Origin: Streptomyces akebiae
GTDB lineage: Bacteria; Actinomycetota; Actinomycetes; Streptomycetales; Streptomycetaceae
Length of the DNA: 64,000 nucleotides
Assembly (NCBI RefSeq): GCF_019599145.1
Contig: NZ_CP080647.1
Span: 2,480,001 to 2,544,000, forward strand
Direction of reading: 5' to 3'
This document shows, one piece after another, positions 42,670-62,010 of the stretch. The translations under genes were made by a program, and so were the position numbers. Below the pieces are notes generated by a model. That model searched no databases. It was not told the DNA's origin and worked only from the letters and a program-made list of their open reading frames with translations. Position 1 is the first letter of the stretch. The number at the start of each line of letters is the position of its first letter.

Positions 42670-44199
42670 ATGGCAGACGACTACCTCGAACGCATCGGCA
42701 AGCTCATCCGTGACGCCCGACAGCACCGTGGCTGGACACAGTCGCAGTTGGCGGAGGCGCTCGGGACGAGCCAGAGCGCGGTGAATCGTATCGAGCGCGG
42801 TAATCAAAACATCAGCCTTGAGATGATCGCCCGAATCGGTGAAGCCCTCGACAGTGAGATCGTCTCACTGGGCTACGCGGGTCCGATGCATCTGCGGGTG
42901 GTCGGCGGACGTCGGCTGTCGGGCGCGATCGACGTGAAGACCAGCAAGAACGCGTGTGTCGCGCTGCTGTGCGCCACCTTGTTGAACAAGGGGCGCACAG
43001 TGCTGCGCCGGGTGGCCCGCATCGAGGAGGTGTACCGCCTTCTGGAGGTGCTCGGCTCCATCGGCGTACGCACCCGGTGGATCAACGGCGGGGTCGACCT
43101 GGAGATCGTGCCGCCCGCCGAGGTGGACCTCGACGCCATCGACGCGGAGGCGGCGCGCCGCACCCGCTCGATCATCATGTTCCTCGGCCCGCTGCTGCAC
43201 CGCATGGACCACTTCAAGCTGCCGTACGCGGGCGGTTGCGACCTCGGGACGCGGACGATCGAGCCGCACATGATCGCCCTGCGCCGGTTCGGCCTCGACA
43301 TCACGGCCACCGAGGGGCTGTACCACGCCGAGGTGGACCGCTCCGTCACCCCCGGCCGTCCGATCGTGCTGACCGAGCGCGGGGACACCGTGACCGAGAA
43401 CGCGCTGCTCGCGGCCGCCCGCCACGACGGCGTCACCGTCATCCGCAACGCCTCGTCGAACTACATGGTCCAGGACCTCTGCTTCTTCCTGGAGGCCCTC
43501 GGCGTAAGGGTGGAGGGCATCGGCACCACCACGCTCACCGTGCACGGGGTGCCGCACATCGACGTGGACGTCGACTACTCCCCCTCCGAGGACCCGGTCG
43601 AGGCGATGAGCCTGCTCGCCGCGGCGGTCGTCACCGAGTCCGAACTGACCGTCCGCCGGGTGCCGATCGAGTTCCTGGAGATCGAGCTGGCGGTCCTGGA
43701 GGAGATGGGGCTCGACCACGACCGCTCACCGGAGTACGTCGCCGACAACGGCCGTACGCGCCTGGTGGACCTCACCGTCCGTCCCTCGAAACTCCAGGCG
43801 CCCATCGACAAGATCCACCCCATGCCGTTCCCCGGCCTGAACATCGACAACGTCCCCTTCTTCGCGGCCATCGCCGCCGCCGCGCAGGGCCAGACGCTCA
43901 TCCACGACTGGGTCTACGACAACCGGGCGATCTACCTGACGGACCTCAACCGCCTCGGTGGCCGCCTCCAACTCCTGGACCCCCACCGCGTCCTGGTCGA
44001 GGGCCCCACCCGCTGGCGCGCGGCCGAGATGATGTGCCCACCGGCCCTCCGCCCGGCCGTGGTCGTCCTGCTGGCGATGATGGCCGCCGAGGGCACGTCC
44101 GTGCTCCGCAACGTCTACGTCATCAACCGCGGGTACGAGGACCTCGCGGAGCGCCTCAACACTGTGGGGGCGCAGATCGAGATCTTCAGGGACATCTGA
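42670..44199 (+). CDS. murA: XRE HTH fused to UDP-GlcNAc enolpyruvyl transferase (MurA)
   Basis: 509 residues. Residues 1-70 form a complete XRE-type HTH (IGKLIRDARQHRGWTQSQLA and TSQSAVNRIERGNQNISLEM). From about 75 a full MurA fold begins (LRVVGGRRLSGAIDVKTSKN). The catalytic Cys is at 190 in YAGGCDLGTRTIEPH, equivalent to E. coli Cys115 after subtracting the 75-residue HTH. MurA adds enolpyruvate to UDP-GlcNAc in peptidoglycan synthesis; here this may be a second MurA with a regulatory role. The palindrome over its own promoter suggests autoregulation. Both domains share one uninterrupted frame. Confidence 0.93.
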   Translation: MADDYLERIGKLIRDARQHRGWTQSQLAEALGTSQSAVNRIERGNQNISLEMIARIGEALDSEIVSLGYAGPMHLRVVGGRRLSGAIDVKTSKNACVALLCATLLNKGRTVLRRVARIEEVYRLLEVLGSIGVRTRWINGGVDLEIVPPAEVDLDAIDAEAARRTRSIIMFLGPLLHRMDHFKLPYAGGCDLGTRTIEPHMIALRRFGLDITATEGLYHAEVDRSVTPGRPIVLTERGDTVTENALLAAARHDGVTVIRNASSNYMVQDLCFFLEALGVRVEGIGTTTLTVHGVPHIDVDVDYSPSEDPVEAMSLLAAAVVTESELTVRRVPIEFLEIELAVLEEMGLDHDRSPEYVADNGRTRLVDLTVRPSKLQAPIDKIHPMPFPGLNIDNVPFFAAIAAAAQGQTLIHDWVYDNRAIYLTDLNRLGGRLQLLDPHRVLVEGPTRWRAAEMMCPPALRPAVVVLLAMMAAEGTSVLRNVYVINRGYEDLAERLNTVGAQIEIFRDI

Positions 44200-44933: not shown

Positions 44934-47900
44934 GTGCGCCTGGAGACGGTCGACGGACGGTTCCGGATCATGGGGATCCTGGGCCGCGGGAACATGGGCG
45001 AGGTGCACCGGGCCGAAGACCTTCAGGCGGCCGCGGACTCCCCGCACCGGGAAGTCGCCGTCAAGACCGTGCTGCGCAGCCGTACCGGAGTCGCCGTCGA
45101 CACCTCCGGGTCCGGCAAGGAGATCGACCGCTTCCGCCGCGAAGTGCGGATCATGCGCATGCTCTCCCAGGGCCACCCGAACCTCACCCTGCTGATCGAC
45201 GGTGGCGTGGACCGGGCGCCGGACGGCAGCGGCCTGCCCTACCTGGCCATGGAGTTGCTGGACGGCCATCCGCTCGCGGACCTCATCGACGAGGAACCTC
45301 AGCTGCCGGTCTCCTGGGTCGCCGCCATCGGGGCGCAGCTCGCCGCCGGCCTAGCCGCCGCGCACACCGCCGGGGTCGTCCACCGCGATCTGAAGCCGGC
45401 CAATGCGATGCTGACCCGCGACGGCACCATCAAGGTCCTCGACTTCGGCATGGGTTCGGTCGTCGACGATCCCGACCAGACCCGTCTGACCAGTACGGGC
45501 GTCAGCGTCGGCACGGCTCGCTACATGGCGCCCGAACAGTTCCGTGCCGAACGGGTCTCCGCGTCGGCCGACCTCTACGCGCTCGGCTGCATCCTGTACG
45601 AGCTGCTGATAGGGCGGCCGCCGTTCTCCGCCAGAACCCCCTACGAACTCTCCGAACAGCACCAGCACGAGAAGCCACCGCGGCTCACTCTGGTGCGGCC
45701 GGACCTGCCCGCCGAACTGGTCCGGCTGGTGGACCGCCTCCTGGAGAAGGACTCCGAACTGCGGCCCGAGAACGCCGCCCTGGTCCGTGAGACGCTGGTC
45801 CCGCTCGCGCTCGCGCCGGACGACACGGCCGCTCTGCTGGCTCCGCACTGGCAGGTGATGGACCCGGTGGCGCGGCTGCGTGCCATGCTCCCCGAGCCTG
45901 TCCCGGCCGCCCCCGCACCCGTGCCGCGCAGGGAACCGCGCCTGCCCGAGGCGATGGACGTCTTCGGCATCCATGCCGACCTGATCAGCGAGTACAAGAA
46001 CTTCACCAAGAGCGCGACGGTGATCCGGGACGCCCGGATCGACAACTTCGTCGAGGAGGACCTGGCGGCGAAGTCGCAATGGCCCGACCCGTGGCTGTCG
46101 CTGAATCCGTTCTTCGCCGACGGTGGGCAGGTCACCGACCTCGTGCGCGACGGAATGCTGCACCCGAAGTGCGCGGAGATCTTCCAGGCCGACAAGAAGG
46201 AGACCTCGCAGCGCCCGGACGGCCGGCCGCTGACGTTCCACCTCCACCAGCGGCAGGCGATCGAGGCCGCCCAGGCGGGCGACTCCTATGTGCTGACGAC
46301 CGGCACCGGTTCCGGGAAGTCCCTGTCGTACATCGTCCCGATCGTGAACCACGTACTGAAGGAGCGTCAGGCGGCGGGGCCGGGCGCCGGCGGCCGGGTG
46401 CGCGCGATCGTCGTCTACCCGATGAACGCGCTGGCCAACTCGCAGCTGGGGGAGCTGGAGAAGTACCTGCGGCACGGATTCGGCAAGGGCCGCGAGCCGG
46501 TCACCTTCGCCCGCTACACCGGGCAGGAGTCCGACGAGGACCGCCGACAGCTGCGCAAGAACCCCCCGGACATCCTGCTGACCAACTACGTGATGCTGGA
46601 GCTGATGCTGACCCGGCCGGACGACCGGTCCAGCCTGATCCGCATGGCCGAGGGGCTCCAGTTCCTCGTCTTCGACGAGCTGCACACCTACCGGGGCCGA
46701 CAGGGCGCGGACGTGGCGTTCCTGATCCGCCGGGTACGTGAGGCCTGCCGCGCGTCCACGACGCTGCAGTGCATCGGTACCTCGGCGACCATGTCCACCG
46801 AAGGCTCCTGGGAGGACCAGCGGCGTGAGGTGGCCAGGGTCGCGGGCCGGTTGTTCGGTACGACGGTGCTGCCCAAGCGGGTCATCGGGGAGACCCTGGT
46901 CCGGGCGACCGGGGAGGCCCCCGAGTCCGTGCCCGCCGAGCGGCTGCGGGTGCCGGCGGCGCCCCGCTCGTACGAGGCGCTGACGAAGGATCCGCTGGCC
47001 CGCTGGGTGGAGTCCCGGTTCGGCCTGGAGCAGGAGGAAGGCACGGGGCGGTTGCGGCGCTGCCCTCCGGGCACTGTCGAGGAGGCGGCGACCGAGCTGG
47101 CCGAAGAGTCCGGGGTGCCCGAGGAGAGCGTGCGCGAGGCGATCCGCACGACCCTGGAGGCGGGCGCACAGGCCAAGCACCCGGTGACGGAGCGGCCGCT
47201 GTTCGCGTTCCGGCTGCACCAGTTCCTCTCCAAGGGCGACACGGTCTACACGACGCTGGAGGATCCGCTCACCCGGCCGCTGACCCGCACCTACCAGCTG
47301 GAGCAGCCGGACAGCGACGGCAAGCCGCTGTTCCCACTGGCGTTCTGCCGCGAGTGTGGCCAGGAGTACCTGACGGTCTGGCGCACCGAGGACGGCGGCG
47401 CGTTCCGGTACGAGCCGCGACGGGACACCTCCGCCTCCGGGGGCCGCGCGGGCGAGGGCTACCTGTACCTGGGCATGCCCGGGGAGGACTACGAGTGGCC
47501 GGCCGATCCGCAGAAGGCCGTGGACGACAGGCGGTTGCCGGAGTCGTGGCTGGAGCCGGACGCGCAGGGCATGACGGTCGTCAAGAAGTCCTACCGACCG
47601 CGTCTGCCCAAACGTGTCGTCGTGGACGCCCACGGAAACGAAGCGGGCGAAGGGCTGGTGGCGGCGTTCGTCCCGGCGCCGTTCCTGTTCTGCGTGCACT
47701 GCCAGGTCTCCTACGAGCAGACCCGCGGCCGGGACTTCGCCAAGCTGGCCACCCTGGACCAGGAGGGCCGTTCCTCGGCGACCTCGCTGATCTCCGCGTC
47801 GATCGTGAAGTCGCTGCGGGCCGTGCCGGAGGAGAGCCTCAGCAAGGAAGCGCGCAAGCTTCTCACCTTCGTCGACAACCGACAGGACGCCTCGCTCCAG

Positions 47901-50900
47901 GCCGGGCACTTCAACGACTTCGCTCAGGTGACCCAGTTGCGTGGCGCCCTCTACCAGGCGGCTGTGCGTTCCGGTGAGGAAGGGCTGAACCACGACGACC
48001 TCGCCGAGGCCGTGACCGAGGTGATGGGCCTGACACCCCGCGAGTACACGGACGGCGCGGACCTGACTCCTGCCATGGAGCGCCGGGCGGTGAAGGCCTT
48101 CCGGGACGTCGTCGGATACCGCCTCTACCGCGACCTGGAGCGCGGCTGGCGCATCACGATGCCGAACCTGGAGCAGACGGGACTGCTACGGATCGACTAC
48201 GAGGACCTGGACTGGCTCGCCGCCACCGACGAGCGCTGGCAGTCCGCGCACGCCGTGCTGCGCGACGCCGATCCGGCGCTGCGCGAGGAGATCGCCCGTA
48301 CGCTGCTCGACTTCATGCGCCGGGCTCTGGCCATCGACGTGCAGTACTTCCGCGACGACTTCGACACCCTTCAGCGGGCGAGCGAGGAGCGGCTGACCGG
48401 GGCGTGGGTGCTGAGCGAGAGCGACCGGCCGGTCGTCGGAACCGCCTACCCGTACGGCTCACGACCGGGTATGGAACGCTCCGCGCTGTTCCTGTCGGCC
48501 CGCGGCAAGTTCGGCAAGTACCTGCGGCGCAACATGCCCGAGCTGCGCGAGGCGTCCGTGAGCCTGGACGACGTCCAGTCCGTCATCGAAGACCTGCTGA
48601 AGGTGTTGCGCGACGCCGACCTGGTGCGCGAGGTGGACGCGACCCCCGAGTCCTCCGGTCCGGCCTACCGCCGCCGTGCGGCGCAGAAGCGCACCGGCTA
48701 CCGGGTGTCCGCCGCCCACCTGATCTGGCGTGCGGGGAACGGTGAACGCGGCGCGGTCGACCCGCTCGCGCGCACCTACAGCAGCGGAGAGGGCCCGCGC
48801 GTCAACCCGTTCTTCCGGGACCTGTACCGGGCCGCGGCGGCCGAGCTGGCCGGTCTGTTCGCACGGGAGCACACCGCTCAGGTCCTTCCGGAGGACCGGC
48901 TGGAGCGCGAGGAGCAGTTCCGGCAGGCCAAACTGCCTCTGCTGTACTGCTCGCCGACGATGGAGCTCGGCGTCGACATCTCCTCGCTCAACGCCGTGAT
49001 GATGCGCAATGTCCCGCCGACCCCGGCGAACTACGCACAGCGCTCGGGCCGGGCGGGCCGTTCCGGTCAGCCCGCGCTGGTGACGACGTACTGCGCGACC
49101 GGCAACAGCCACGACCAGTACTACTTCCGCCGCTCCCAGGACATGGTGTCGGGCCAGGTGGCCCCGCCGCGGCTGGACCTGGCCAACGAGGATCTGGTCC
49201 GCTCGCATCTCCAGGGCATCTGGCTGGCGGAGACCGGCATGAAGCTGGGCACCGCGATCCCGGAGGTCGTCGATGTCGCCTACGACCCCGACGGCGACGA
49301 CCGCCCCGACCCGCTGATGCCGCTGCCGCTCCGCTCCGAGATCCTCACCCTGTCCCTGGACGAGGACGCCCGTACACGCGCGGCCGCCACCGCCCGTACC
49401 GTCCTCGCCCCGCTGATCGCGGACTTCGAGTCGACCACCTGGTGGTACGACGAGTGGATCGAGGACCGGATCGAGCGGGCTCCGCAGGAGTTCGACGCCT
49501 CCTTCGACCGGTGGCGGGATCTGTTCCGGGCGGCCGTCATCGACCAGTACGAGCAGAACAAGCGCGTCGTCGACCACACCCTCACCCAGGGCGAGCAGAG
49601 CCGGGCGCGCAGCCGCCGCCGGGAGGCCGAGACGCAGACGAACCTGCTGCTGAACCGCTCCACCGACAACAAGTCGGTGATGAGCGACTTCAATCCGTAC
49701 CGCTATCTGGCGTCCGAGGGGTTCCTGCCGGGCTACAGCTTCCCGCGGCTGCCGCTGGCCGCGTACATCCCGCGCTCCGGCAACCGTCGCAACGCCGACG
49801 GCGACTATCTCCAGCGTCCGCGGTTCCTCGCGATCCGCGAGTTCGGCCCCGGCGCGCTCATCTACCACGAGGGCGCCCGCTATCAGGTCACGCGGGTTCA
49901 GCTGCCGCCGGACGCCTCGGGCGATCTGGCGACGGCGGAGGCCAGGCGCTGCGACGGCTGCGGTTACCACTACGTCGTCAAGCCCGGCTCCGACACGTGC
50001 ACGATGTGCGGAGAGGAGCTGCGCGGCAAGCGCACGGGCCTGCTCCACCTGCACACGGTGTACACCACGCCGCGCGAGCGGATCTCCTCCGACGAGGAGG
50101 AGCGCCGCCGGGCCGGTTTCCGCCTGGAGACCTCGTACGCGTTCCAGGACCACGGCGCCCGCAAGGGACGCCTCACCTCGCATGTCGCCGACGCCGACGG
50201 GGCGCCCGTCCTCGACCTGGACTACGGCGACTCGGCGACCGTGCGCATCACCAACCTCGGCCGCGTCCGCGACAAGGAGGGCGAGCCGGACGGCTACTGG
50301 CTGGACCTGGGCGACGGCCGCTGGCTCAACGACCGGGCCGCGGCGGACGCCATCGAGGGCACCGGCATGCCGGTGGTCGACGATGACGGCAACGAGAAGC
50401 GCCGCAAGAAGCGGGTGCTCCCGTTCGTGGAGGACCGCCGCAACATCCTCGTGGTCACCCTGGAGGAGCCGCTGCCCGAGCCGGTGGCGCTGTCGTTCCT
50501 GTACGCGCTGGAGCGGGGCATCGAGGCGGCGTTCGAGCTGGAGGACTCCGAACTGACCGCGGAGCTGCTGCCGCCGGACGAGGGGCCACGCCGCCGCATG
50601 CTGTTCACGGAGGCCGCCGAGGGCGGCGCCGGTGTGCTGCGCCGGATCCAGCACGACAGGGACGCTCTCGCCAAGGCCGCCGAAACCGCCCTGGACATCT
50701 GCCACTTCGACCCGGAGACCGGCGACGACGAGGGCGGACCGGCGGACGGCGAGAGGTGCGCCCGCGGCTGCTACGCCTGTCTGCTGACCTACGCCAACCA
50801 GACCCACCACCGTCAGCTGAGCCGGCATGCCGCCCAGCCGCTGCTGGTGCGGCTGGCCGCCTCCCGCACCGAGCGGGAGGACCGTGGCGAGTCCCGCAGC

Positions 50901-51257
50901 GAGCGGTTCCGCAGGCTGGCCCCGGCGGCCTCGCCGACCCCGGTGGAGGCGGACCTCGCGGAGCTGGTCGCGCAGGGTGACCTGTTGGGCTGGCTGAGGG
51001 CGAAGGGCTATCGGCTGCCGGACGAGGTGGACGTCCTCGTCCCGGAGGCCGGGGCCTGCCCCGACCTGGTCTTCCGCCTGGACGGCGCCAACCTCGCCGT
51101 GTTCGTCGACGTCCCCGGCCACGCCGCCGACTCCACCCGTGACGTCGAGGCCGGGTACCGCCTGGAGGACGCGGGCTGGGACGTCCTGCGCTTCCCGGCG
51201 GACACTGACTGGGACGCCATCGCGGACCGCAACGCCGCCTACTTCCATCTCCGTTGA
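44934..51257 (+). CDS. Ser/Thr kinase fused to DEAD/DEAH helicase with DUF1998 domain
   Basis: Single chain of 2107 residues, probable phage-defence protein. Kinase (about 1-290): glycine loop 17-24 GRGNMGEV, Lys44 in VAVK, HRD 150-152, DFG 170-172, APE in YMAPEQF, all intact. After a Pro/Ala linker comes a helicase: Walker A TGTGSGKS near 456-463, DELH near 581, motif VI YAQRSGRAGRSGQ near 1368. Zinc-type Cys pairs are near 805, 920 and 1673 (CDGCG/CTMCG). The DUF1998 signature RCARGCYACL is near 1942, then a C-terminal PD-(D/E)XK-like tail (CPDLVF...AVFVDVPGH). The GTG start follows GGGGAGG. It resembles DruE or fused DrmA/DrmB plus a kinase. First gene of the three-gene operon. Confidence 0.9.
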   Translation: MRLETVDGRFRIMGILGRGNMGEVHRAEDLQAAADSPHREVAVKTVLRSRTGVAVDTSGSGKEIDRFRREVRIMRMLSQGHPNLTLLIDGGVDRAPDGSGLPYLAMELLDGHPLADLIDEEPQLPVSWVAAIGAQLAAGLAAAHTAGVVHRDLKPANAMLTRDGTIKVLDFGMGSVVDDPDQTRLTSTGVSVGTARYMAPEQFRAERVSASADLYALGCILYELLIGRPPFSARTPYELSEQHQHEKPPRLTLVRPDLPAELVRLVDRLLEKDSELRPENAALVRETLVPLALAPDDTAALLAPHWQVMDPVARLRAMLPEPVPAAPAPVPRREPRLPEAMDVFGIHADLISEYKNFTKSATVIRDARIDNFVEEDLAAKSQWPDPWLSLNPFFADGGQVTDLVRDGMLHPKCAEIFQADKKETSQRPDGRPLTFHLHQRQAIEAAQAGDSYVLTTGTGSGKSLSYIVPIVNHVLKERQAAGPGAGGRVRAIVVYPMNALANSQLGELEKYLRHGFGKGREPVTFARYTGQESDEDRRQLRKNPPDILLTNYVMLELMLTRPDDRSSLIRMAEGLQFLVFDELHTYRGRQGADVAFLIRRVREACRASTTLQCIGTSATMSTEGSWEDQRREVARVAGRLFGTTVLPKRVIGETLVRATGEAPESVPAERLRVPAAPRSYEALTKDPLARWVESRFGLEQEEGTGRLRRCPPGTVEEAATELAEESGVPEESVREAIRTTLEAGAQAKHPVTERPLFAFRLHQFLSKGDTVYTTLEDPLTRPLTRTYQLEQPDSDGKPLFPLAFCRECGQEYLTVWRTEDGGAFRYEPRRDTSASGGRAGEGYLYLGMPGEDYEWPADPQKAVDDRRLPESWLEPDAQGMTVVKKSYRPRLPKRVVVDAHGNEAGEGLVAAFVPAPFLFCVHCQVSYEQTRGRDFAKLATLDQEGRSSATSLISASIVKSLRAVPEESLSKEARKLLTFVDNRQDASLQAGHFNDFAQVTQLRGALYQAAVRSGEEGLNHDDLAEAVTEVMGLTPREYTDGADLTPAMERRAVKAFRDVVGYRLYRDLERGWRITMPNLEQTGLLRIDYEDLDWLAATDERWQSAHAVLRDADPALREEIARTLLDFMRRALAIDVQYFRDDFDTLQRASEERLTGAWVLSESDRPVVGTAYPYGSRPGMERSALFLSARGKFGKYLRRNMPELREASVSLDDVQSVIEDLLKVLRDADLVREVDATPESSGPAYRRRAAQKRTGYRVSAAHLIWRAGNGERGAVDPLARTYSSGEGPRVNPFFRDLYRAAAAELAGLFAREHTAQVLPEDRLEREEQFRQAKLPLLYCSPTMELGVDISSLNAVMMRNVPPTPANYAQRSGRAGRSGQPALVTTYCATGNSHDQYYFRRSQDMVSGQVAPPRLDLANEDLVRSHLQGIWLAETGMKLGTAIPEVVDVAYDPDGDDRPDPLMPLPLRSEILTLSLDEDARTRAAATARTVLAPLIADFESTTWWYDEWIEDRIERAPQEFDASFDRWRDLFRAAVIDQYEQNKRVVDHTLTQGEQSRARSRRREAETQTNLLLNRSTDNKSVMSDFNPYRYLASEGFLPGYSFPRLPLAAYIPRSGNRRNADGDYLQRPRFLAIREFGPGALIYHEGARYQVTRVQLPPDASGDLATAEARRCDGCGYHYVVKPGSDTCTMCGEELRGKRTGLLHLHTVYTTPRERISSDEEERRRAGFRLETSYAFQDHGARKGRLTSHVADADGAPVLDLDYGDSATVRITNLGRVRDKEGEPDGYWLDLGDGRWLNDRAAADAIEGTGMPVVDDDGNEKRRKKRVLPFVEDRRNILVVTLEEPLPEPVALSFLYALERGIEAAFELEDSELTAELLPPDEGPRRRMLFTEAAEGGAGVLRRIQHDRDALAKAAETALDICHFDPETGDDEGGPADGERCARGCYACLLTYANQTHHRQLSRHAAQPLLVRLAASRTEREDRGESRSERFRRLAPAASPTPVEADLAELVAQGDLLGWLRAKGYRLPDEVDVLVPEAGACPDLVFRLDGANLAVFVDVPGHAADSTRDVEAGYRLEDAGWDVLRFPADTDWDAIADRNAAYFHLR

Positions 51258-51309
51258 CCGCCTCGCCCCCTCTCGACCTCCTCTCGACCTCTAGGAACTG
51301 AGACATCCC

Positions 51310-54267
51310 ATGAGCCTCACGTACACAGCCGGCTCCCTGGTCGCCGCCCGTGGCCGGGAATGGGTGGTGCTGCCCGAGAGCGCCCCCGACATGCTGGTGC
51401 TGCGCCCCCTGGGCGGGAGCGAGGACGACATCGCGGCCGTGTTCCCCACCTTCGAGGAGGTGCGGCCGGCCGAGTTCGCGGCGCCGAGCCCGGCCGACCT
51501 GGGCGACCAGCGGGCCGCCGGTCTGCTCCGTACGGCGCTGCGCATCGGGTTCCGCTCGGGTGCGGGCCCGTTCCGTTCACTGGCGTCAATAGCGGTGGAG
51601 CCCAGGGCGTACCAGCTGGTCCCGCTGCTGATGGCCCTGCGGCAGCGCACGGTACGGCTGCTGATCTCGGACGACGTGGGCATCGGCAAGACGGTCGAGG
51701 CGGGTCTGATCGCCAAGGAGCTGCTCGCCCAGGGCGAGGCGACCCGGCTGGCAGTGCTCTGCTCCCCCGCCCTGGCCGAGCAGTGGCAGGGCGAGCTGCG
51801 GGAGAAGTTCGGTATCGACGCCGAACTGGTCCTGGCCTCCACGGTGTCGCGCCTGGAGCGCGGCCTGGAGCTGGGCCAGTCCCTGTTCGACAAGCACTCC
51901 TGCACGATCATCTCGACGGACTTCATCAAGTCGACCCGCCACCGCGAGGACTTCGTACGCAACTGCCCCGACCTGGTGATCGTCGACGAGGCCCACGCCT
52001 GCGTGGCGGCCGACGACACCACGCAGGGCGGCACGTCGTCCGCCGCGAACCAGCTCCGGTACGAGCTGCTGCGCAGGGTCTCCGCCAAGGCCGACCGGCA
52101 CCTGCTCCTGCTGACCGCGACCCCGCACTCCGGCAAGGAGTCCGCGTTCCGCAACCTGCTCGGCCTGGTGCGTCCAGAACTCGCCACGCTGGACCTGGAG
52201 TCCCCGGCGGGGCGCGCGAAGCTCGCCGAGCACTTCGTGGCCCGCAAGCGCGCCGACGTCCGCGACTATCTCACCAAGGAGGACGGCCTCGCCGACGACT
52301 CCCTGGCCGAGCGGACCGCCTTCCCGTCCGACCGCTGGACCAAGGACGAGCCGTACAAGCTGACGCCCGCCTACCGGGCGCTGCTCGACGACGCCATCGC
52401 CTATGCGCGGGACCGCGTCACGGAGGCCGGGGAGCAGGGCAAGCGTGAGGCCCGGATCGCCTGGTGGTCGGTGATCGCGCTGCTGCGCTCGATGGTGTCC
52501 TCCCCGGCGGCGGCCGCGCAGACCCTGAAGACGCGTTCGGAGTCCGCCACCGCCCGCACCGCGCAGGAGGCGGACGCGCTTGGTGCCCCGGTGGCGGCCG
52601 ACTCCGCCGAGAACGACCGGCTGGAGGGCATGGACGTGGCGCCGGGCGCCGCCGAGTCGGAGGAGGCGGGTGCCCGGCTGCTCGAACTCTCCCAGCGGGC
52701 GGCGCAGTTGATGGGTCCGGCCGAGGACGCGAAGCTGAAGGCGCTCACCCGGCATCTGAAGGGCCTGATCGCCGACGGCTACCACCCGATCGTCTTCTGC
52801 CGTTACATCCCCACCGCCGAGTACCTGGCCACGCAGCTGGAGGGCAAGCTCGGCAAGAAGACGAAGATCGCCGCGGTGACGGGCACCCTCTCCCCGCAGC
52901 AGCGTCTGGAGCGCATCGAGCAGCTCGCCGCCGAGTCCGCCGCAGCGGGCGCGGAGACCGGCGACCCGGCCGTCCGCCGGGTGCTGATCGCCACGGACTG
53001 CCTCTCCGAGGGCGTCAACCTCCAGCACCACTTCGACGCCGTGGTCCACTACGACCTCGCCTGGAACCCGACCCGCCACGACCAGCGCGAAGGCCGCGTC
53101 GACCGCTACGGCCAGAAGCGCGACCAGGTCCGTGTCATCACCATGTACGGCGAGGACAACGGCATCGACGGCAAGGTCCTGGAGGTGCTGTTCAAGAAGC
53201 ACCGGCAGATCAAGAAGGACCTGGGCATCTCCGTCTCCGTCCCCGACGAGACCGCCTCCGGTGTCACCGACGCCGTCGTGGAGTGGCTGCTGCTGCACGG
53301 GCGGCAGGGCAGCCAGGAGAGCCTGTTCGACCTGGGCGGCCACCAGGAGTCGTTGGACCGTATCGAGCGCGAGTGGAACTCGGCCGCCGAGCGGGAGAAG
53401 ACCTCCCGCTCCAAGTACGCCCAGCGCGCCATCCACCCGGAGGAGGTGGCCCGAGAGGTCACCGCCGTACGGGCCGCGCTCGGCGGCGCCGACGAGGTGC
53501 GCGGTTTCGCCCTGGAGGCGCTGCGCGATCTGGACGCCCTCGTCCGCGAACCTCGCGACGGCAACGGCGACTTCACCGCTCAGGCCGGCGGCGCCCCGGC
53601 CGGCCTGCGCGACGCGCTGGCCGCCACCCTCGGCGGACGGCTGATCGAGGAGGACCGGGAGATCCCGTTCCGTACGACACCGGCGATCGCCCGCGGCGAG
53701 GCGGCGCTGGTCCGCACCGACCCGGCGATCGGCGCCATCGCCTCGTACGTCCTGGACTCGGCGCTCGACGCGAACACCCCGGGCCCCCGCCCGGCCCGCC
53801 GCTGCGGCGTGGTGACCACGAACGCGGTCGGCATCCGCACGACGCTCCTCCTGGTCCGCTACCGCTTCCACCTCACCCTGCCCTCCCGTACCGGCGAGCG
53901 GCAGCTGGTCGCGGAGGACGCCCGGCTGCTCGCCTACGAGGGGATGCCGTCGCGCGCCCGCTGGCTGGACGACGACGCTGCCGCCGCGCTCCTCTCGGCC
54001 CGCGCCGCCGCCAACACCCACGAGCAGCTCGCCCGCAACCAGATCACCCGCGCCCTGGACGGCCTGCCGGACCTGTCCGCGCACCTCACCGAGTACGGCA
54101 CGCGCCTGGCCGCCGAGCTCGACGCCTCGCACCGCCGCGTCCGCAAGGCCAACGAGGAGATCGTCCGCGGCCTGAAGGTCGTCCCGCAGGAGCCGGCCGA
54201 CGTCCTCGGCGTGTACGTCTACCTGCCGCAGCAGCCCGTTCCCACCATGACCGGAGCCGAAGCCTGA
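51310..54267 (+). CDS. SNF2-type helicase (DrmD-like)
   Basis: 985-residue ATPase/translocase. Walker A is DDVGIGKTVEAGLI near residue 120, DEAH near 225 (LVIVDEAHACV), LLLTATPHSGKE as motif III, and the C-terminal motif VI is NPTRHDQREGRVDRYGQKRD near 586. This is the RapA/SNF2 pattern of class 1 DISARM DrmD. A C-terminal region of about 270 residues with no clear motif follows. It starts 52 nt after the kinase-helicase stop and its stop overlaps the methyltransferase start (TGATG), so the order is fixed in one operon. It likely moves along or remodels DNA at the direction of the methylation status. Confidence 0.93.
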   Translation: MSLTYTAGSLVAARGREWVVLPESAPDMLVLRPLGGSEDDIAAVFPTFEEVRPAEFAAPSPADLGDQRAAGLLRTALRIGFRSGAGPFRSLASIAVEPRAYQLVPLLMALRQRTVRLLISDDVGIGKTVEAGLIAKELLAQGEATRLAVLCSPALAEQWQGELREKFGIDAELVLASTVSRLERGLELGQSLFDKHSCTIISTDFIKSTRHREDFVRNCPDLVIVDEAHACVAADDTTQGGTSSAANQLRYELLRRVSAKADRHLLLLTATPHSGKESAFRNLLGLVRPELATLDLESPAGRAKLAEHFVARKRADVRDYLTKEDGLADDSLAERTAFPSDRWTKDEPYKLTPAYRALLDDAIAYARDRVTEAGEQGKREARIAWWSVIALLRSMVSSPAAAAQTLKTRSESATARTAQEADALGAPVAADSAENDRLEGMDVAPGAAESEEAGARLLELSQRAAQLMGPAEDAKLKALTRHLKGLIADGYHPIVFCRYIPTAEYLATQLEGKLGKKTKIAAVTGTLSPQQRLERIEQLAAESAAAGAETGDPAVRRVLIATDCLSEGVNLQHHFDAVVHYDLAWNPTRHDQREGRVDRYGQKRDQVRVITMYGEDNGIDGKVLEVLFKKHRQIKKDLGISVSVPDETASGVTDAVVEWLLLHGRQGSQESLFDLGGHQESLDRIEREWNSAAEREKTSRSKYAQRAIHPEEVAREVTAVRAALGGADEVRGFALEALRDLDALVREPRDGNGDFTAQAGGAPAGLRDALAATLGGRLIEEDREIPFRTTPAIARGEAALVRTDPAIGAIASYVLDSALDANTPGPRPARRCGVVTTNAVGIRTTLLLVRYRFHLTLPSRTGERQLVAEDARLLAYEGMPSRARWLDDDAAAALLSARAAANTHEQLARNQITRALDGLPDLSAHLTEYGTRLAAELDASHRRVRKANEEIVRGLKVVPQEPADVLGVYVYLPQQPVPTMTGAEA

Positions 54268-57200
54268 TGTCCGCCGCCACCCGCACCGCCCTGGCCTTCA
54301 CCTCCGTCACCACGGTCGGCGGCCTGCTCCCCGCCGACATGCTGCTGCGCATCGCCGAGGCGCGGAACCTGCCCGGCACCAAGTCCGCCGACTACGGCCT
54401 GCCCGCCTCCGTCCCCGTGCGCGACGAGGCCGAGCGCGCCTGGGAGTACCTCAAGCCGCTCTGGCGCGACCTGCGCACGGCCCTGCCCTCGGACCCGACG
54501 ACGGGGGCGCCCGCCGCCGACCCGACCGGCCGGGCCGGGACGGACTGGCTCGCCCAGCTCTTCCGCAAGCTGGACTTCGGCGCGCTGACGGAGGTCGGGG
54601 CGGCGGGCATCCCGGCCGACTCGGACCCGGAGAAGCGGTTCCCGGTCTCCCACCGCCACGGCCCGGCGCTGGTCCATCTGGTGCCGTGGAACCAGGAGTT
54701 GGACAAGCGCCCGGCAGCCGGCCAGGTCCCGGCCCAGTCCATGCTCCAGGACTGCCTCAACCGCACCGAGGCCCACCTGTGGGCGGTCCTCACCAACGGC
54801 CGCCGCCTGCGCCTGCTGCGCGACTCGTCGTCCTTCTCCACGGCCGCCTACGTCGAGTTCGACCTGGAGGCGTTGTTCGACGGTGAGCTGTTCAGCGAGT
54901 TCGTGCTGCTGTACAGCCTGCTGCACGCGTCGCGGTTCGAGGTGCCGGAGGGGGCGGCGGCTGCGGGGTGCTGGCTGGAGAAGTGGCGTGCGGAGGCCGT
55001 CACTTCGGGGGCGCGGGCGTTGGATCAGCTGCGGCTGGGGGTGCAGAACGCGCTGACGGTGCTTGGTACCGGGTTCCTTCGGCATCCGGAGAACGTCCGG
55101 CTGCGGGAGGACGTCGACCCGAAGGCGCTTCGGGACGCTCTGCTGCGGCTCGTCTACCGTCTGCTGTTCGTCTTCGTGGCCGAGGACCGCGATGCGCTGC
55201 TCGACCCCGATGCCGGTGAGCGGCAACGGGAGGCGTACGAGCGGTACTTCTCCTCGGCGCGGTTGCGTGAGCGGGCCCGGCGGCGGCAGGGCACGGCTCA
55301 TGGTGATCAGTACGAGGCTCTACGGATCGTCCTCGACGCCCTGGGAACGGAGGGTGGCCGTCCGGAGCTGGGCCTGCCGGGCCTCGGCGGCTTGTTCTCC
55401 CACAAGGAGGCCGACGCGCCGCTGGACGGCCTGAAGCTGTCCAACGAGTCACTGCTCGCTGCCGTACGGCACCTCGCGCAGGTCCGCGACCCGGGCGCGC
55501 GGCGCTGGCGGGCGGTGGACTACCGGCACCTGGATGCCGAGGAACTGGGCTCGGTGTACGAGTCCCTGCTGGAGTTGGAGCCGAAGCACTCGGCGACGGA
55601 CCGCTCGTTCGAGTTGATCGAGGTGGCGGGCAACAGCCGTAAGACGACGGGAAGTTACTACACCCCGTCCTCGCTCATTGAGTGCCTGCTGGACACGACA
55701 CTCGACCCGGTCATAGACGACGCGGTCAAGCGAGGCGAGCAGCGGGCGACCGAGGCCGGTCGTACCGACCCGGCCGACGACATCGTCGATGAGCTGCTGT
55801 CGCTTACGGTGTGCGACCCGGCTTGTGGGTCCGGGCACTTCCTGGTTGCTTCGGCGCGCCGTATCGCCAAGCGGGTGGCGTCGGTGCGGGAGCGCAACCC
55901 TGAGCCGACGGTCGATGCGATGCGGCATGCGTTGCACGAGGTTGTCGCGCGGTGCATTTACGGCGTCGACCTCAACCCCATGGCCGTGGAGCTGGCCAAG
56001 GTCTCGCTGTGGATCGAAGCCATGGAGCCGGGGAAGCCGCTCGGGTTCCTGGACGCCCATGTCAAACACGGGAACGGCTTGATCGGGGCGACGCCGAAGC
56101 TGCTGGCGGACGGTGTTCCGGACGACGCCTTCAAGCCGATCGAGGGTGATGACCGGAAGTATGCGGCTGGGCTCGTCAAGCGGAACAAGGCCCAGCGGGG
56201 TGGGCAGGACGAGCTTCTGTTTGATGCGGATGCTCTGCCCGGCAACGAGCGTTACGCCGCTGAGTTGGCCCGGATCACCGCTGCTCCGGCCAACTCCCTG
56301 AAGCAGGTGCGGGCGCAGGAGTCCGCGTATCAGGCGTACGTGGAGTCGAGCGCGTATGTGCAGGACCTGCATGCCGCTGACGCGTGGTGTGCCGCGTTTG
56401 TGTGGCCCAAGCATGAGGGGGCGCCGGAGGCGCCGACGGACCAGGTGTTTCGGGCGCTGCGTGGTCGTGACAAGTCTGTGGTGCCGGACAGTACGCATGA
56501 GGAGATTCTGCGGCTTCGGTATCAGTACAGCTTCTTTCACTGGCACTTGGAGTTTCCGGAGGCTTTCTCCGTCCCGGAGTCGGGGGTTGGGGTTCAGCGG
56601 GGTACGGGCTGGGCTGGGGGGTTCGATGCGGTGGTGGGGAATCCGCCTTGGGAGCGGGTGAAGCTTCAGGAGCAAGAGTTCTTTGCTCAGCGGGATCCGC
56701 GGATTGCTGAGGCCAAGAACGCGGCGGCCCGGAAGAGGCTCATTGCCGAACTGCGGGACGATCCTGACGGCGCGCGCCTGTACGCCGAGTTCGAGGCTGC
56801 CAAGCGCCGCTCGGAGGGCGAGAGTCACTTCCTGCGCACCAGCGTCCGATTCCCGCTGACGGGGCGGGGTGACATCAACACGTACGCCGTGTTCACGGAA
56901 ACCGACCGCATGCTGACGGGGCCGCGCGGCCGGACGGGCGTGATCGTTCCGACGGGAATCGCTACGGATGCGACGACGCAGTTCTTCTTCAAGGACTTGG
57001 TCGAGCGAGGGTCCTTGGCCAGCTTGTTCGAGTTCGGAAACGAAGAAAAGCTTTTCGCCGCGGTCAAGGACTACGTGCGCTTCGTCCTCCTCACGATGCG
57101 CAGCCAGGGCGCCCCTGACGCCCCCATCTCCATGGTTGCCAAGGTCCGCCAGGTTGCGCAGATCGCCGACCGCGCGTACACCCTGACCTCGCGCGACATC

Positions 57201-58391
57201 CTCCGCGTCAACCCGAACACGGGGACGTGTCCCATCTTCTCGTCCCGTCGGGATGCAGACATCACGCTCGGCATTTACCGCCGAGTACCAGTCCTGATCA
57301 ACGAGACGAATGAAGTGGGCGGGAACCCCTGGGACATCTCGTTCACGCGCATGCTCGACATGTCGAACGACTCCCACCTGTTCCGCCCCGCCGCCCAGAA
57401 CGGCGAGACCTTCGACGATCTCCTCAAAGCAGGATGGACCCTCGACGCCAACGTTCTCACCCGTGGCAATGAGCGCCTGCTCCCGCTGTACGAGGCGAAG
57501 ATGCTGCACCACTACGACCACCGCTTTTCCACGTACGAGGACGCCACGGAGAAGCAACTCAACGAGCGCACCCTTCCCCGCTTTACCGTGGACCAGCACC
57601 AGGACGCCTCCGCCGTACCGCTGCCTCGCTACTGGGTGCCGGAACAGGATGTTCCGACTGGCGAAGTCGACAAGAACGGCAAGCCCGTTATGGAGCCTGG
57701 CGTCCGCAGCCGTCTGGCCGCCAAGGGGTGGAACCGGGAGTGGCTCTTCGGCTGGCGTGACATCGCCCGGGCCAGCGATGAACGCACCCTGATCACGGCA
57801 GCTGCTCCGGCCCACGGCTTCGGCCACCCTTATCCTCTGGCCCTCCCCGCCCTGCCGAGCCACGCTCCGCTGCTTTCCGCAGTCTGGTCGTCCATGGCTT
57901 GCGACTACGCCGTTCGCCAGAAGATCGGCGGCACGCACCTCACCTACGGCTACGTCCAGCAGGTTCCGGTCCCCACTCCCGACCAGCTCGCGCCCCACGC
58001 AGAGTTCGTCACCACGCGCATCCTCGAACTCACCTACACCGCAAACGACATACGCCCGTTCGCTAGCGACCTCGGTGACACCGGCGCCCCCTTCCAGTGG
58101 GACGAGGACCGCCGCGCCATCATCCGCGCCGAACTGGACGCCCTCTTCTTCCACCTCTACGGCATCACCCGCGATGACACCGCGTACATCCTTGACACCT
58201 TCAACGTCACCCGCGACAACGACATCAAGGCGCACGGCGAGTACCGCACCAAGAACCTGATCCTCGCCGAATACGACCGCATGGCCGCCGCCGGCCTCAC
58301 CCTGGAGAACCCGCTCACCGAGGGCGAGTCCGGCACCTACCGCTCCACCCTCACCCCGCCCCCGGGCCACGGCCCCAGGCACCCCGCCTGA
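54267..58391 (+). CDS. N6-adenine DNA methyltransferase, PglX/DrmMI/Eco57I-like
   Basis: 1374 residues. The SAM-binding motif I is DPACGSGHFLVASARRIAKR near 517 and the catalytic motif IV is NPPW near 790 (VVGNPPWERVKLQEQ), the signature of class I adenine methyltransferases. The N-terminal 450 residues are alpha-helical with no nuclease motif I can confirm; the C-terminal 550 hold a predicted target-recognition region (GSLASLFEFGNEEKLFAAVK). It is expected to mark host DNA so that the helicases spare it. The stretch 55,650-57,400 has visibly more A/T at third positions than the flanks, a hint of transfer or of a swapped recognition domain. Confidence 0.93.
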   Translation: MSAATRTALAFTSVTTVGGLLPADMLLRIAEARNLPGTKSADYGLPASVPVRDEAERAWEYLKPLWRDLRTALPSDPTTGAPAADPTGRAGTDWLAQLFRKLDFGALTEVGAAGIPADSDPEKRFPVSHRHGPALVHLVPWNQELDKRPAAGQVPAQSMLQDCLNRTEAHLWAVLTNGRRLRLLRDSSSFSTAAYVEFDLEALFDGELFSEFVLLYSLLHASRFEVPEGAAAAGCWLEKWRAEAVTSGARALDQLRLGVQNALTVLGTGFLRHPENVRLREDVDPKALRDALLRLVYRLLFVFVAEDRDALLDPDAGERQREAYERYFSSARLRERARRRQGTAHGDQYEALRIVLDALGTEGGRPELGLPGLGGLFSHKEADAPLDGLKLSNESLLAAVRHLAQVRDPGARRWRAVDYRHLDAEELGSVYESLLELEPKHSATDRSFELIEVAGNSRKTTGSYYTPSSLIECLLDTTLDPVIDDAVKRGEQRATEAGRTDPADDIVDELLSLTVCDPACGSGHFLVASARRIAKRVASVRERNPEPTVDAMRHALHEVVARCIYGVDLNPMAVELAKVSLWIEAMEPGKPLGFLDAHVKHGNGLIGATPKLLADGVPDDAFKPIEGDDRKYAAGLVKRNKAQRGGQDELLFDADALPGNERYAAELARITAAPANSLKQVRAQESAYQAYVESSAYVQDLHAADAWCAAFVWPKHEGAPEAPTDQVFRALRGRDKSVVPDSTHEEILRLRYQYSFFHWHLEFPEAFSVPESGVGVQRGTGWAGGFDAVVGNPPWERVKLQEQEFFAQRDPRIAEAKNAAARKRLIAELRDDPDGARLYAEFEAAKRRSEGESHFLRTSVRFPLTGRGDINTYAVFTETDRMLTGPRGRTGVIVPTGIATDATTQFFFKDLVERGSLASLFEFGNEEKLFAAVKDYVRFVLLTMRSQGAPDAPISMVAKVRQVAQIADRAYTLTSRDILRVNPNTGTCPIFSSRRDADITLGIYRRVPVLINETNEVGGNPWDISFTRMLDMSNDSHLFRPAAQNGETFDDLLKAGWTLDANVLTRGNERLLPLYEAKMLHHYDHRFSTYEDATEKQLNERTLPRFTVDQHQDASAVPLPRYWVPEQDVPTGEVDKNGKPVMEPGVRSRLAAKGWNREWLFGWRDIARASDERTLITAAAPAHGFGHPYPLALPALPSHAPLLSAVWSSMACDYAVRQKIGGTHLTYGYVQQVPVPTPDQLAPHAEFVTTRILELTYTANDIRPFASDLGDTGAPFQWDEDRRAIIRAELDALFFHLYGITRDDTAYILDTFNVTRDNDIKAHGEYRTKNLILAEYDRMAAAGLTLENPLTEGESGTYRSTLTPPPGHGPRHPA

Positions 58392-58471: not shown

Positions 58472-59569
58472 ATGAACCCGTACAACACTCCAGCCCCGTC
58501 CCGCCCCTGGTGGAAGACCACACCGGCCGTGCTCGGCGTCCTCGCACTGGTCGCCCTGCTCGGCGCGTTCAGCTTCGCCCTGGGTTTCCTCGTGATGATC
58601 GCCGCCATGGTGGCCGTATGGGTGCTGCCACCGTGGCGCTGGTTCGCCAGGCTCGGCGCGACGTTCGGAGCCTTTGTGCTCCTGACGGTCGGCGCGGCCC
58701 TGGGTGGACAGCTCGACGACAGCGGGACAGGCAAGTCCGACGCCAAGTCAGCGGGCGCGGGCGGGGCAAGCACCGAATCCGTCTCGGCATCCCCGGCCGC
58801 GTCCACGTCCAAGCCCGCCAAGGCCGCTGACTATGTCGGCCAGCGACTGGACAAGGCCGAGAAGCAGGCCCGCTCCGCCGGCTACACCGCTGCCCACCAT
58901 GACGCGGCCGACGAGGATCGCACGATCGTCCTGAGGTCCGGATGGACCGTGTGCTTCCAGAAGGCCGACACGGCCGCGATGAACATCGGCTTCGCGGCCG
59001 TCAAGAGTGCTGAGCCGTGCCCTGCGAAGGACGGTGGCCCGCTCCCGTGGCCGAAGATGCCGGACGTCGTCGGAGCCACCTACAACACGGCCGTCGAGGA
59101 TCTGAAGCAGGCCGGTATCGACCTCGACCGCGTCACGCTCGACGACGTCTACCTCGACATCGACACTCCGACCGCCGAGGAGGCCGCGGAGGACGGCGAC
59201 GAGTGGCGGGTGTGCTTCCAGTCCCCGGACGAAGGAACCAAGGTCGACTCCGCCACCACGGTCCGCCTCGACCTGGGCGAGTGGACCGACGCCGACCTCA
59301 TCCAGCATTGCCCGTCGGCGAAGGACACGACCTACAAGATCACCGCCAACGATCCCGACTACGACAACGACACCACCGAAGGCAGCGGTTCGGCCGACGG
59401 TGGCTCCTCGTCGTCCTCCGGCGGTTCCACCGGCGGCGGCAGCAGCGTAGGCACGGTCCACCCCGGCTCGTTCTGCTCCCCGCGCGGAGCGACCGGCGTC
59501 ACCGAAGCAGAAACCCCCATGGTCTGCGGCCCCGGCTCCGACGGCCGCAACCGCTGGCGTAGCGCCTGA
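58472..59569 (+). CDS. Membrane protein with PASTA-type domains
   Basis: 365 residues. Two hydrophobic helices at about 19-38 and 40-58, possibly a third at 65-78, then an extracellular Ser/Ala-rich linker. Two PASTA-like repeats follow: YVGQRLDKAEKQARSAGYTA near 110 and MPDVVGATYNTAVEDLKQAG near 195, each ending near a VCFQ segment. The Ser/Gly-rich C-terminus ends in GSFCSPRGATGVTE. PASTA modules usually sense peptidoglycan when fused to Ser/Thr kinases. Here the kinase lies in another gene 14 kb upstream in the same orientation. The 80-nt gap leaves open whether it belongs to the operon. Confidence 0.8.
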   Translation: MNPYNTPAPSRPWWKTTPAVLGVLALVALLGAFSFALGFLVMIAAMVAVWVLPPWRWFARLGATFGAFVLLTVGAALGGQLDDSGTGKSDAKSAGAGGASTESVSASPAASTSKPAKAADYVGQRLDKAEKQARSAGYTAAHHDAADEDRTIVLRSGWTVCFQKADTAAMNIGFAAVKSAEPCPAKDGGPLPWPKMPDVVGATYNTAVEDLKQAGIDLDRVTLDDVYLDIDTPTAEEAAEDGDEWRVCFQSPDEGTKVDSATTVRLDLGEWTDADLIQHCPSAKDTTYKITANDPDYDNDTTEGSGSADGGSSSSSGGSTGGGSSVGTVHPGSFCSPRGATGVTEAETPMVCGPGSDGRNRWRSA

Positions 59570-60639: not shown

Positions 60640-61989
60640 CTATTTGATGGTGACGTAGAAGCCGTCGTCGTCGCCGTCGAGTATGCGGTTGACCGTCATG
60701 AACTGACCGAGAAGGTTGCCGGCGTTACCGTTGTCCTTCTTCGCCAGGGGCCGGACGGAGAAGTTGTTCTTCGGGGCGGAAGGCTCGTACGTGTTCTGGG
60801 CGCAGCCCTCATAGGTGGTTGCGAAGGGGTACTCGTCGCACTCCTTCCCGCCCTTGGCGTAGTCCTTGCCGAACACCTTCTTGCACGCGCTCACCGCGGT
60901 CGAACGGTTCTTCTTGCGTCGTGCGTTGTCGTGGTAAAGCCGGTGCAGAGGCGACTGCGCGCTCGACCCAGGAACCTTCTTGCTGGCGTTGGCCGGCTTG
61001 GTGCTGCCCGGTTTGGTGAAAGCGGTCTTTATGTGGTTGGCGACTGCTTTCTCCGGAGAGCCCGCCTTGGTGCTGTAGACGAGCGGGACGAGATAGGTGA
61101 AAACCGCACCACCCTGGGCTGACTTGGGGAGATACGAAGCCTTGTCCCACCGCGGCGGCAGGAAGAACAGCGTTCCGCTCAGTTCCCCTGCCGCCGTATA
61201 GCCGGGAGGCGGGGTGATCACAGCCGACGCTTCGAAGACAGAGGCGACGGCGTCGGCGGGCTTGGACCCTTGTCCTGCGGCAGCCTTCAGGACACGCGTG
61301 AATCCCGCAGGCTGCTGAGCGGCGATGACATCGAAGCTCCGAGCCCCAGGCACCGCACCGGTCTGGGTGACCTTCGCGGTCTTCGGCCACACCTGGGGTA
61401 TTTTCACCGACGGCTTGATCATCATGGCCGACGTCGGCACGGCACCAGTCTTCTGCATCTTGGTGAAGTACTGGGTGATGCGTACGTCGCGGCTGTCCTT
61501 CGCTATCGTCCCGACCGACAGGTAGACGAACTGGGTCTCACCCACGGGGCGGCCGTTCTGCGACCACACGGTGAAGAACACCGCACCGGAGCAGGAAGCG
61601 AAACGCGATTTGAAGAAGAACTTCTTGTCCGTGCCCAAGCCCTTGATGCATTCCTGAGGTGTCATCGTACGGGCGGGCTCGGGATAGGTCACCGGCGGAT
61701 CCGCCACCGCGGATCGCTGGTCGCTGACGCGGCCGTACGTGGCCGCCGGACCGACAACCTCCGGCGCATGCTCGGAACCAGCGAACGCTTCACGCTCCTT
61801 GACGAGCAGGTCTTTACTCCCCGCCCGCTGAAGATCGGACAGTGAGGGAAGCCGCGTTCCCACCGGCAGGACACTCGTGTGCATTTCTCTGCTTTGCGAT
61901 GCGGCCGCAGCCGGTGACGCCACCGGCAGAACAGCAGCCGCCAGAACGCCAATCGCCGCAGTGACGGAAAAAGTTCGACGAAACGTCAC
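60640..61989 (-). CDS. Secreted protein with NucA/NucB-type DNase domain
   Basis: 449 residues with an export signal (VTFRRTFSVTAAIGVLAAAV, cleavage near PAAAAS). A middle region of about 280 residues is unrecognised. The C-terminal 110 residues match the NucA/NucB nuclease fold: CDEYPFATTYEGC, then NLLGQFMTVNRILDGDDDGF. The acidic CDEYPFA segment holds the expected catalytic Asp/Glu. The GTG at 61989 has GGGGA 7 nt upstream; longer frames reach the antisense of other sequences. It could be a contact-dependent or secreted DNA-degrading toxin or a nutrient nuclease. An immunity gene may be 60115-60588. Confidence 0.8.
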   Translation of the reverse strand: MTFRRTFSVTAAIGVLAAAVLPVASPAAAASQSREMHTSVLPVGTRLPSLSDLQRAGSKDLLVKEREAFAGSEHAPEVVGPAATYGRVSDQRSAVADPPVTYPEPARTMTPQECIKGLGTDKKFFFKSRFASCSGAVFFTVWSQNGRPVGETQFVYLSVGTIAKDSRDVRITQYFTKMQKTGAVPTSAMMIKPSVKIPQVWPKTAKVTQTGAVPGARSFDVIAAQQPAGFTRVLKAAAGQGSKPADAVASVFEASAVITPPPGYTAAGELSGTLFFLPPRWDKASYLPKSAQGGAVFTYLVPLVYSTKAGSPEKAVANHIKTAFTKPGSTKPANASKKVPGSSAQSPLHRLYHDNARRKKNRSTAVSACKKVFGKDYAKGGKECDEYPFATTYEGCAQNTYEPSAPKNNFSVRPLAKKDNGNAGNLLGQFMTVNRILDGDDDGFYVTIK

Positions 61990-62010
61990 TTCATAGTCCC
62001 CGTTCACCTG

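Follow-up and report, generated by a model that had tools for sequence, protein, structure and literature searches.

A Ser/Thr kinase fused to the helicase of a putative ARMADA Type I operon in Streptomyces akebiae

ARMADA Type I is described in the main text of a 2025 preprint (Bell et al., PMC12458937) as a YprA helicase gene followed by a BrxHII-like SNF2 gene and then by a gene for a PglX-like methyltransferase, with the order reversed in many cyanobacteria and archaea. According to the same text, ARMADA Type II protects E. coli in a direct and non-abortive way, for which the Walker motif of the helicase and the NPPW motif of the methyltransferase are needed. A Hanks-type kinase working together with an adenine methyltransferase in Streptomyces is known from Pgl (BREX type 2); namely, Streptomyces coelicolor loses its phage resistance with the kinase-dead PglW variant K677A, and its authors put forward phosphorylation as the switch of the methyltransferase system (PMC4365076). 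Here, we describe an operon in a 64,000-nucleotide stretch of the Streptomyces akebiae genome (hereafter the window, in whose numbering all operon coordinates are given), in which a helicase of the YprA/DUF1998 type carries an N-terminal Ser/Thr kinase and is followed by an SNF2 helicase and an adenine methyltransferase. With a probability of roughly 0.55, we consider this operon to be an antiphage system of ARMADA Type I into which a Ser/Thr kinase has been built; the kinase would act as a phospho-switch on a methylation-guided helicase defence.

The operon is composed of three uninterrupted open reading frames arranged in tandem on the + strand (44934–58391). The first gene (44934–51257; 2107 amino acids) encodes the ArmC-type fusion of the kinase with the helicase; its frame opens with GTG, and GGGGAGGG is found upstream of the start. 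The kinase domain (residues 8–290; 44955–45803) is of the Hanks type and is connected by a linker (residues 301–340; 45834–45953), which evolves fast in the two most distant pairs compared, to M341 (45954–45956), an ATG codon at the position where kinase-less homologues begin. The helicase then comprises a RecA1/DEAD domain (residues 438–621; 46245–46796) with the motifs TGTGSGKS (456–463), DELH (581–584), and SAT (615–620), a Helicase_C/RecA2 part (residues 1311–1378; 48864–49067) with QRSGRAGR (1369–1376), an MZB (i.e., DUF1998) zinc-binding domain (residues 1857–1950; 50502–50783), and a putative C-terminal Vsr/DUF559-like PD-(D/E)XK domain (residues 1965–2107; 50826–51254), in which D2044, D2059, H2063, and D2070 are kept while residue 2060, usually Gly, is Val. 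The fusion protein scores above the Pfam cut-offs for Pkinase (E = 1.6e-41), DEAD (1.6e-25), Helicase_C (2.5e-11), and MZB (1.3e-8). The second gene (51310–54267; 985 amino acids) encodes an SNF2/RapA-type helicase resembling BrxHII, DrmD, and ArmA, with Pfam matches to Helicase_C, ResIII, DEAD, and SNF2-rel_dom, the last over its cut-off. The third gene (54267–58391; 1374 amino acids), which starts with an ATG overlapping the SNF2 stop codon (TGATG), encodes a PglX/DrmMI/ArmB-like N6-adenine methyltransferase with DPACGSGHF (517–525) and NPPW (792–795); it matches Eco57I, MmeI, and N6 methylase families, with Eco57I and N6_Mtase over the cut-off. The frames and the Pfam matches thus confirm the architecture read by a first-pass annotation of this DNA, which had placed kinase motifs, helicase motifs, and DUF1998 in one chain of 2107 residues, followed by the SNF2 and methyltransferase genes coupled by TGATG. 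In the database, the fusion protein is named simply "protein kinase" or "helicase", and the best 120 of 7988 protein relatives are mostly named Streptomyces.

That annotation had matched this exact architecture to no named system and had listed a match of the trio to a named subtype as a refutation of its reading. Such a match exists for the trio: a YprA/DUF1998 helicase in one chain, a BrxHII/RapA-like SNF2 protein, and a PglX-like methyltransferase, in that order, are what the main text of the preprint describes as the already named ARMADA Type I (PMC12458937). The window trio also shares with Type I a probable Vsr-like C-terminus (here under the Pfam cut-off and with the glycine changed), the lack of DrmC, the lack of ArmD directly downstream, and the occurrence in Actinomycetota. 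Because the gene order, the one-chain helicase, the probable Vsr-like C-terminus, the lack of DrmC, and the inverted order in one cyanobacterial and one archaeal locus all match, we assign the trio to ARMADA Type I; this placement rests on description, order, and homology rather than on a tree with the published representative WP_108720193.1. What sets the window trio apart is the N-terminal Ser/Thr kinase, which is absent from the main text of the preprint. ARMADA Type II of E. coli ATCC 8739 has homologues of all three proteins (165 bits for SNF2, 139 for the methyltransferase, and 126 for the best piece of the helicase) but differs in the order SNF2–methyltransferase–helicase–ArmD, in the fourth gene, and in having no kinase annotated.

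The same annotation had regarded the operon as a hybrid of DISARM, Druantia, and BREX, with the functions of DrmA and DrmB in one chain together with a kinase and with drmC missing. A defence-type operon with these functions in one chain, a kinase, and no drmC is indeed what we see; the hybrid itself is not, as the trio fits ARMADA Type I. As for DISARM, a class 1 variant that has lost drmC and has drmA joined to drmB would account for the scores of the SNF2 protein (303 bits with the NCBIfam model and 273 bits with the PADLOC model of DrmD) and of the methyltransferase (226 bits with PADLOC DrmMI; 101 bits with its class 1 DISARM relative). The NCBIfam score is, however, half of the cut-off of 610 bits, and the SNF2 protein does not discriminate, with 182 bits for DrmD of Nocardia and 165 bits for ArmA of E. 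coli. The helicase is much further from DISARM, scoring only 36 bits (Nocardia) and 46 bits (own genome) with DrmA and DrmB, against 126 and 118 bits with ArmC of E. coli ARMADA and 108 and 96 bits with DruE. In addition, class 1 DISARM has a separate drmA, a separate DUF1998 gene (drmB), and the phospholipase D (PLD) nuclease gene drmC, all annotated as such in Nocardia, and the S. akebiae genome has a DrmA/DrmB pair of its own. No Pfam PLD domain was found in the three operon proteins or in the ten neighboring proteins scanned. On the single chain, the lack of PLD in the proteins scanned, the DrmD score, and a helicase unlike DrmA and DrmB, the DISARM hybrid was rejected, and the DISARM variant as a rival is strongly disfavored.

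The comparison with the remaining systems points the same way. DruE of Druantia III, also a DUF1998 helicase, belongs to the same superclade (PADLOC DruE3, 348 bits), but the window helicase has SNF2 and methyltransferase partners, whereas DruE of E. coli lies beside a STY4851-family protein, which we take to be DruH, with no kinase annotated. The deep branches of the helicase tree are long and unsure. PglW of Pgl has other domains, and its NCBIfam model reaches 49 bits here against a cut-off of 990 bits; the suggested link to the BREX-2 kinase is accordingly weak, and this identity was set aside. One database match would make the operon part of a Dpd (7-deazaguanine) system, namely its restriction half: the PADLOC model PDLC02853, labelled "DpdE", fits the SNF2 protein over its full length with 1634 bits. 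The curated NCBIfam DpdE model, nonetheless, gives 174 bits against a cut-off of 500 bits. Also, no match to the TGT family (PF01702), of which DpdA is presumably a member, was obtained in the genome, while the same search was positive in 14 of 14 control genomes. We hence regard a Dpd system as scarcely credible; since PDLC02853 fits an ARMADA-I SNF2 protein at full length, some Dpd hits given by PADLOC in Streptomyces may be stray.

The three genes occur together far beyond this window. Among 80 named loci, which are the best 80 of at least 567 relatives chosen by the SNF2 protein, the full trio is present in 74, with the same order and strand in all 74. The other six lack either the helicase (L127 and L129) or the methyltransferase (L114, L122, L123, and L125), and in each of them the sequence stops within about 2 kb on that side. 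The SNF2 protein was found in 8 of 197 genomes of the class, including S. akebiae itself, and six of the seven others have the trio in order; the seventh (L019, genome G110) has the SNF2 and methyltransferase genes and no YprA helicase within its 20 kb. A further 19 stretches were taken by helicase match, and 17 of them contain the complete trio; the remaining two are a helicase alone on a 7.4-kb contig (L045) and a truncated helicase alone (L046). The association of the three genes is therefore more than chance. The trio is also carried by plasmids in Deinococcus radiodurans, Nocardioides, Roseomonas, and Rhodococcus, and on plasmid MP1 of D. radiodurans R1 (L023:19946–24975) the ARMADA-I methyltransferase gene is fragmented and contains an IS630-type element. 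In Acidithiobacillus caldus, other genes lie between those of the trio, and the order is SNF2–methyltransferase–helicase in Planktothrix (a cyanobacterium) and Natrinema (an archaeon), where one locus of each group was opened; the SNF2 gene likewise precedes the helicase gene in Thermus. A scan of viral contigs gave two distant relatives (43% identity).

The fused kinase is intact and, as judged from substitution patterns, under purifying selection. In the window, the motifs GRGNMGEV (17–24), VAVK (41–44), HRDLKPAN (150–157), DFG (170–172), and MAPE (198–201) are all complete, and K44, E70, D152, D170, and T186 of the activation loop are conserved. Across 45 fused loci, in which the kinases compared go down to about 42% identity, K44, E70, H150-R151-D152, K154, N157, D170-F171-G172, and T186 are present in every one, and the first glycine of the nucleotide loop is present in 37. 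The same catalytic residues were found in 131 of 132 members of a Streptomyces-rich set, the exception (P0119) having no N-terminus. In the five closest pairs, the ratio of nonsynonymous to synonymous substitutions (dN/dS) is 0.13–0.21 for the kinase and 0.12–0.16 for the helicase part; in two distant pairs, the values are 0.34 and 0.38 for the kinase and 0.39 and 0.24 for the helicase part. These data bear on the idea that the kinase is a chance domain gain with no role in the system. Such a gain would be in keeping with a single fusion event and one natural loss (see below) in a kinase-rich genome with 46 kinase matches, but the catalytic residues kept in 45 of 45 loci, the low dN/dS, and a separate kinase within a conserved block of the sister clade (see below) make it improbable.

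How the kinase was acquired can be read from the helicases without it. A helicase match was obtained in 26 of 296 genomes of the class; 11 matches extend from residues 1–6 and hence include the kinase, and 15 begin only at residues 292–341. The kinase-less homologues start at residue 340/341 of the window protein with the sequence following the linker (MDVF, 341–344), so that the kinase was joined exactly upstream of the ancestral start codon. The codon of M341 is still ATG in 11 of the 12 fused loci examined at the DNA level; as no clear ribosome site is seen upstream of M341, however, an internal start producing a kinase-free short protein is a possibility only. In the 80-locus set, the fusion occurs in 36 of 78 helicase-bearing loci and 42 were counted as kinase-less, of which 38 are safely judged, the contigs of L087, L088, L107, and L114 beginning at or inside the helicase gene. 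Fused helicases span several actinobacterial families, with genera including Streptomyces, Kitasatospora, Amycolatopsis, Pseudonocardia, Actinocrispum, Spongiactinospora, Actinoallomurus, Actinomadura, Actinospica, Kineosporia, Phytomonospora, Marinactinospora, and Streptomonospora. In a helicase tree of 39 rows, the fused rows form one clade with a Shimodaira-Hasegawa-like approximate likelihood ratio test (SH-aLRT) support of 100. A FastTree of 98 rows, which carries L101 (see below) as kinase-less, places 45 fused rows and one nested kinase-less row (L093) in one clade and requires two changes in all. In a mixture-model tree of 32 rows, the supports are 100 for the fused clade, 97 for a sister clade of five members, and 100 for both together; L037, which adjoined the fused clade in the 39-row tree, moves away once the five sister loci are included. 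Since the deeper sampled branches have no kinase, the simplest reading of these trees is one kinase gain and one later loss in L093. In Streptomyces sp. AC1-42W, two ARMADA-I copies are found on one contig, one with the kinase (L075) and the other without it (L093).

The sister clade of the fused clade comprises L086, L089, L097, L098, and L101 in both the 98-row and 32-row trees. Four of its five members, in Streptomyces radicis, Streptomyces pinistramenti, Streptomyces sp. I05A-00742, and Streptomyces sedi (L089, L097, L098, and L101), encode a Ser/Thr kinase in a separate gene, which lies head to head with that of the helicase, the gap being about 70–260 bp depending on the chosen starts; the kinase adjacent to L101 was found by a hidden Markov model and not by best-hit tblastn. 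No free-standing kinase was found beside the trio of L086 (Actinomadura). When the DNA of L089 is compared with that of L097, L098, and L101, the kinase and the trio are conserved and nothing else longer than 150 bp is; L097 and L098 share further downstream DNA, and L097 and L101 share a short piece. The four separate kinases make up a clade of their own (100/100), which groups with further kinases, including some of the S. akebiae genome, apart from the fused clade (99/95); trees with three of the four agree. They are divergent and come from another kinase subfamily than the fused ones. Kinases thus probably joined ARMADA-I twice, while a single origin is not rejected at p = 0.076 in the approximately unbiased (AU) test.

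Among 28 relatives, the C-terminal 143 residues of the helicase match DUF559 in 18, MTES_1575 in 17 (best E = 6e-7), and Vsr in 3, together with scattered single matches to unrelated families, all at E up to 1. The C-terminus of the window helicase itself matches only DUF559 (E = 0.036, below the cut-off), and its PDB matches are weak (Vsr entries at E = 0.5 and 0.95). Two near relatives, L013 and L028, have Arg instead of the nuclease-motif His. These observations are relevant to the proposal that the kinase is the effector, which, after the helicase engages phage DNA, would phosphorylate host proteins and stop growth (abortive infection). The strict conservation of the kinase while the nuclease motif drifted in fused rows of Streptomyces would fit, and so would the suicidal action suggested for PglW kinases in a comparative study of BREX (PMC12839542). 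The D..D..H residues are, nonetheless, kept in 26 of 45 fused rows, 3 of 3 rows labelled split, and 30 of 50 kinase-less rows (with L101 carried among the last), so that nuclease decay is independent of the kinase; decay going together with the kinase was rejected on these counts. Also, ARMADA Type II is reported in the preprint main text to act without killing the cell (PMC12458937). A kinase effector is hence possible but unlikely.

Regarding the methyltransferase, the helicases of L028 and L029 are 89–91% identical to that of the window, while the methyltransferases are only 60% identical. The third-position identity with L028 is 0.86–0.87 over the first 200 residues, 0.42–0.64 over residues about 201–1316, and 0.86 over the rest, and the pattern with L029 is similar. 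We read this as the exchange of a cassette within a single methyltransferase gene between close relatives, which would fit a change of the methylation mark. Such an exchange speaks against the operon being a DNA-repair (MrfA/YprA-type) operon in which the kinase couples repair to stress signaling. In favor of repair, the YprA family includes repair helicases according to the main text of the preprint (PMC12458937), and the closest solved kinases are mycobacterial PknB. The patchy distribution (SNF2 in 8 of 197 and the helicase in 26 of 296 class genomes), the occurrence on plasmids, and another MZB-domain frame of 889 amino acids in the genome, which could be the housekeeping YprA, argue further against repair, and we consider this role quite improbable.

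The reading that we prefer is an antiphage system gated by its own kinase, in which both the antiphage activity and every step that follows are what we infer here. The methyltransferase would mark host DNA; the YprA-type and SNF2-type helicases, by analogy with ARMADA Type II and DISARM, would load on unmarked foreign DNA, translocate along it, and either block it or degrade it. Being fixed to the helicase, the kinase may sense this engagement and phosphorylate the complex, namely itself, the SNF2 partner, or the methyltransferase. Through phosphorylation, the machine would then pass from restraint to activity or back, as proposed for PglW in Pgl; it is this precedent on which a gating role of the kinase is based. 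Several points weigh against such a reading. The 42 of 78 loci without the fusion and the loss of the kinase in L093 indicate that the core mechanism can do without the kinase. Forcing the fused kinases into one group with the four separate ones carries a cost of 12 log units, which corresponds to the p-AU of 0.076 given above, and p-AU is 0.074 with three separate kinases. Free-standing kinases in the flanks of the 94 loci scanned number 8, when 8.3 are expected from the genome density (one of the 46 kinase matches per 229 kb in the own genome); the argument rests therefore on the position of the four kinases and on the shared block, not on their number. The membership in Type I is based on the published description together with gene order and homology, not on a tree placing the published reference protein, and for the BrxA-like insert expected after RecA1 in Type I, no sequence match was found in the PDB. 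The literature searched, furthermore, yielded no antiphage test of a kinase-bearing system, the published activity being that of Type II.

As for the surroundings of the operon in this genome of 10.5 Mb (two contigs), a gene for an HTH_3 domain fused to an EPSP-synthase-like enzyme lies just upstream (42670–44199, +), and this DNA is also found upstream of the operon in Streptomyces sparsogenes (L053). Directly downstream is a PASTA-domain gene (58472–59569, +), which is present in 2 of 61 genomes of the genus (S. akebiae and G343). An empty site was sought by means of this gene in the 61 genomes and none was found; G343 has the operon at the same place. A gene with a NucA/NucB DNase domain follows on the opposite strand (60640–62139, −). 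About 15–20 kb downstream of the trio and outside the window, the DrmA (PADLOC, 669 bits) and DrmB (230 bits) pair of this genome is located (genome 2553221–2558478; L004:13221–18478, −), and the same region contains a further defence-like protein that matches PADLOC HEC-07 with 91 bits (L004:8800–10686, −) and, at its end, NsnC (42 bits). Genes for drmA and drmB also adjoin ARMADA-I on the Nocardioides plasmid (L024).

In terms of novelty, the trio is already named as ARMADA Type I, and the kinase-bearing form is new in the texts searched. In the main text of the preprint (PMC12458937), whose supplements may list kinase-bearing members, the terms "kinase", "protein kinase", and "phosphoryl" have 0 occurrences, and no kinase fused to such a helicase was noticed in the titles and abstract openings of the literature searched, with most subscription journals outside the search. 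The kinase-bearing helicase together with the kinase gene in the sister clade suggests that some ARMADA defences are controlled by phosphorylation. More speculatively, and in our view rather unlikely, kinases drafted twice would define a class of kinase-gated helicase defences, and in the Streptomyces lineage phosphorylation rather than DNA cutting may be the output, with the helicase serving as the sensor for a kinase effector. The single precise fusion, the separate kinase of the sister clade, and the one loss provide matched systems with and without the kinase, in which the role of the kinase is directly testable. Likewise, the methyltransferase exchange between pairs with nearly identical helicases would be a way to read the self-marking specificity in ARMADA. 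The operon of S. akebiae would thus bring protein phosphorylation into the branch of antiphage defence that uses YprA helicases, for which the texts searched describe no kinase.

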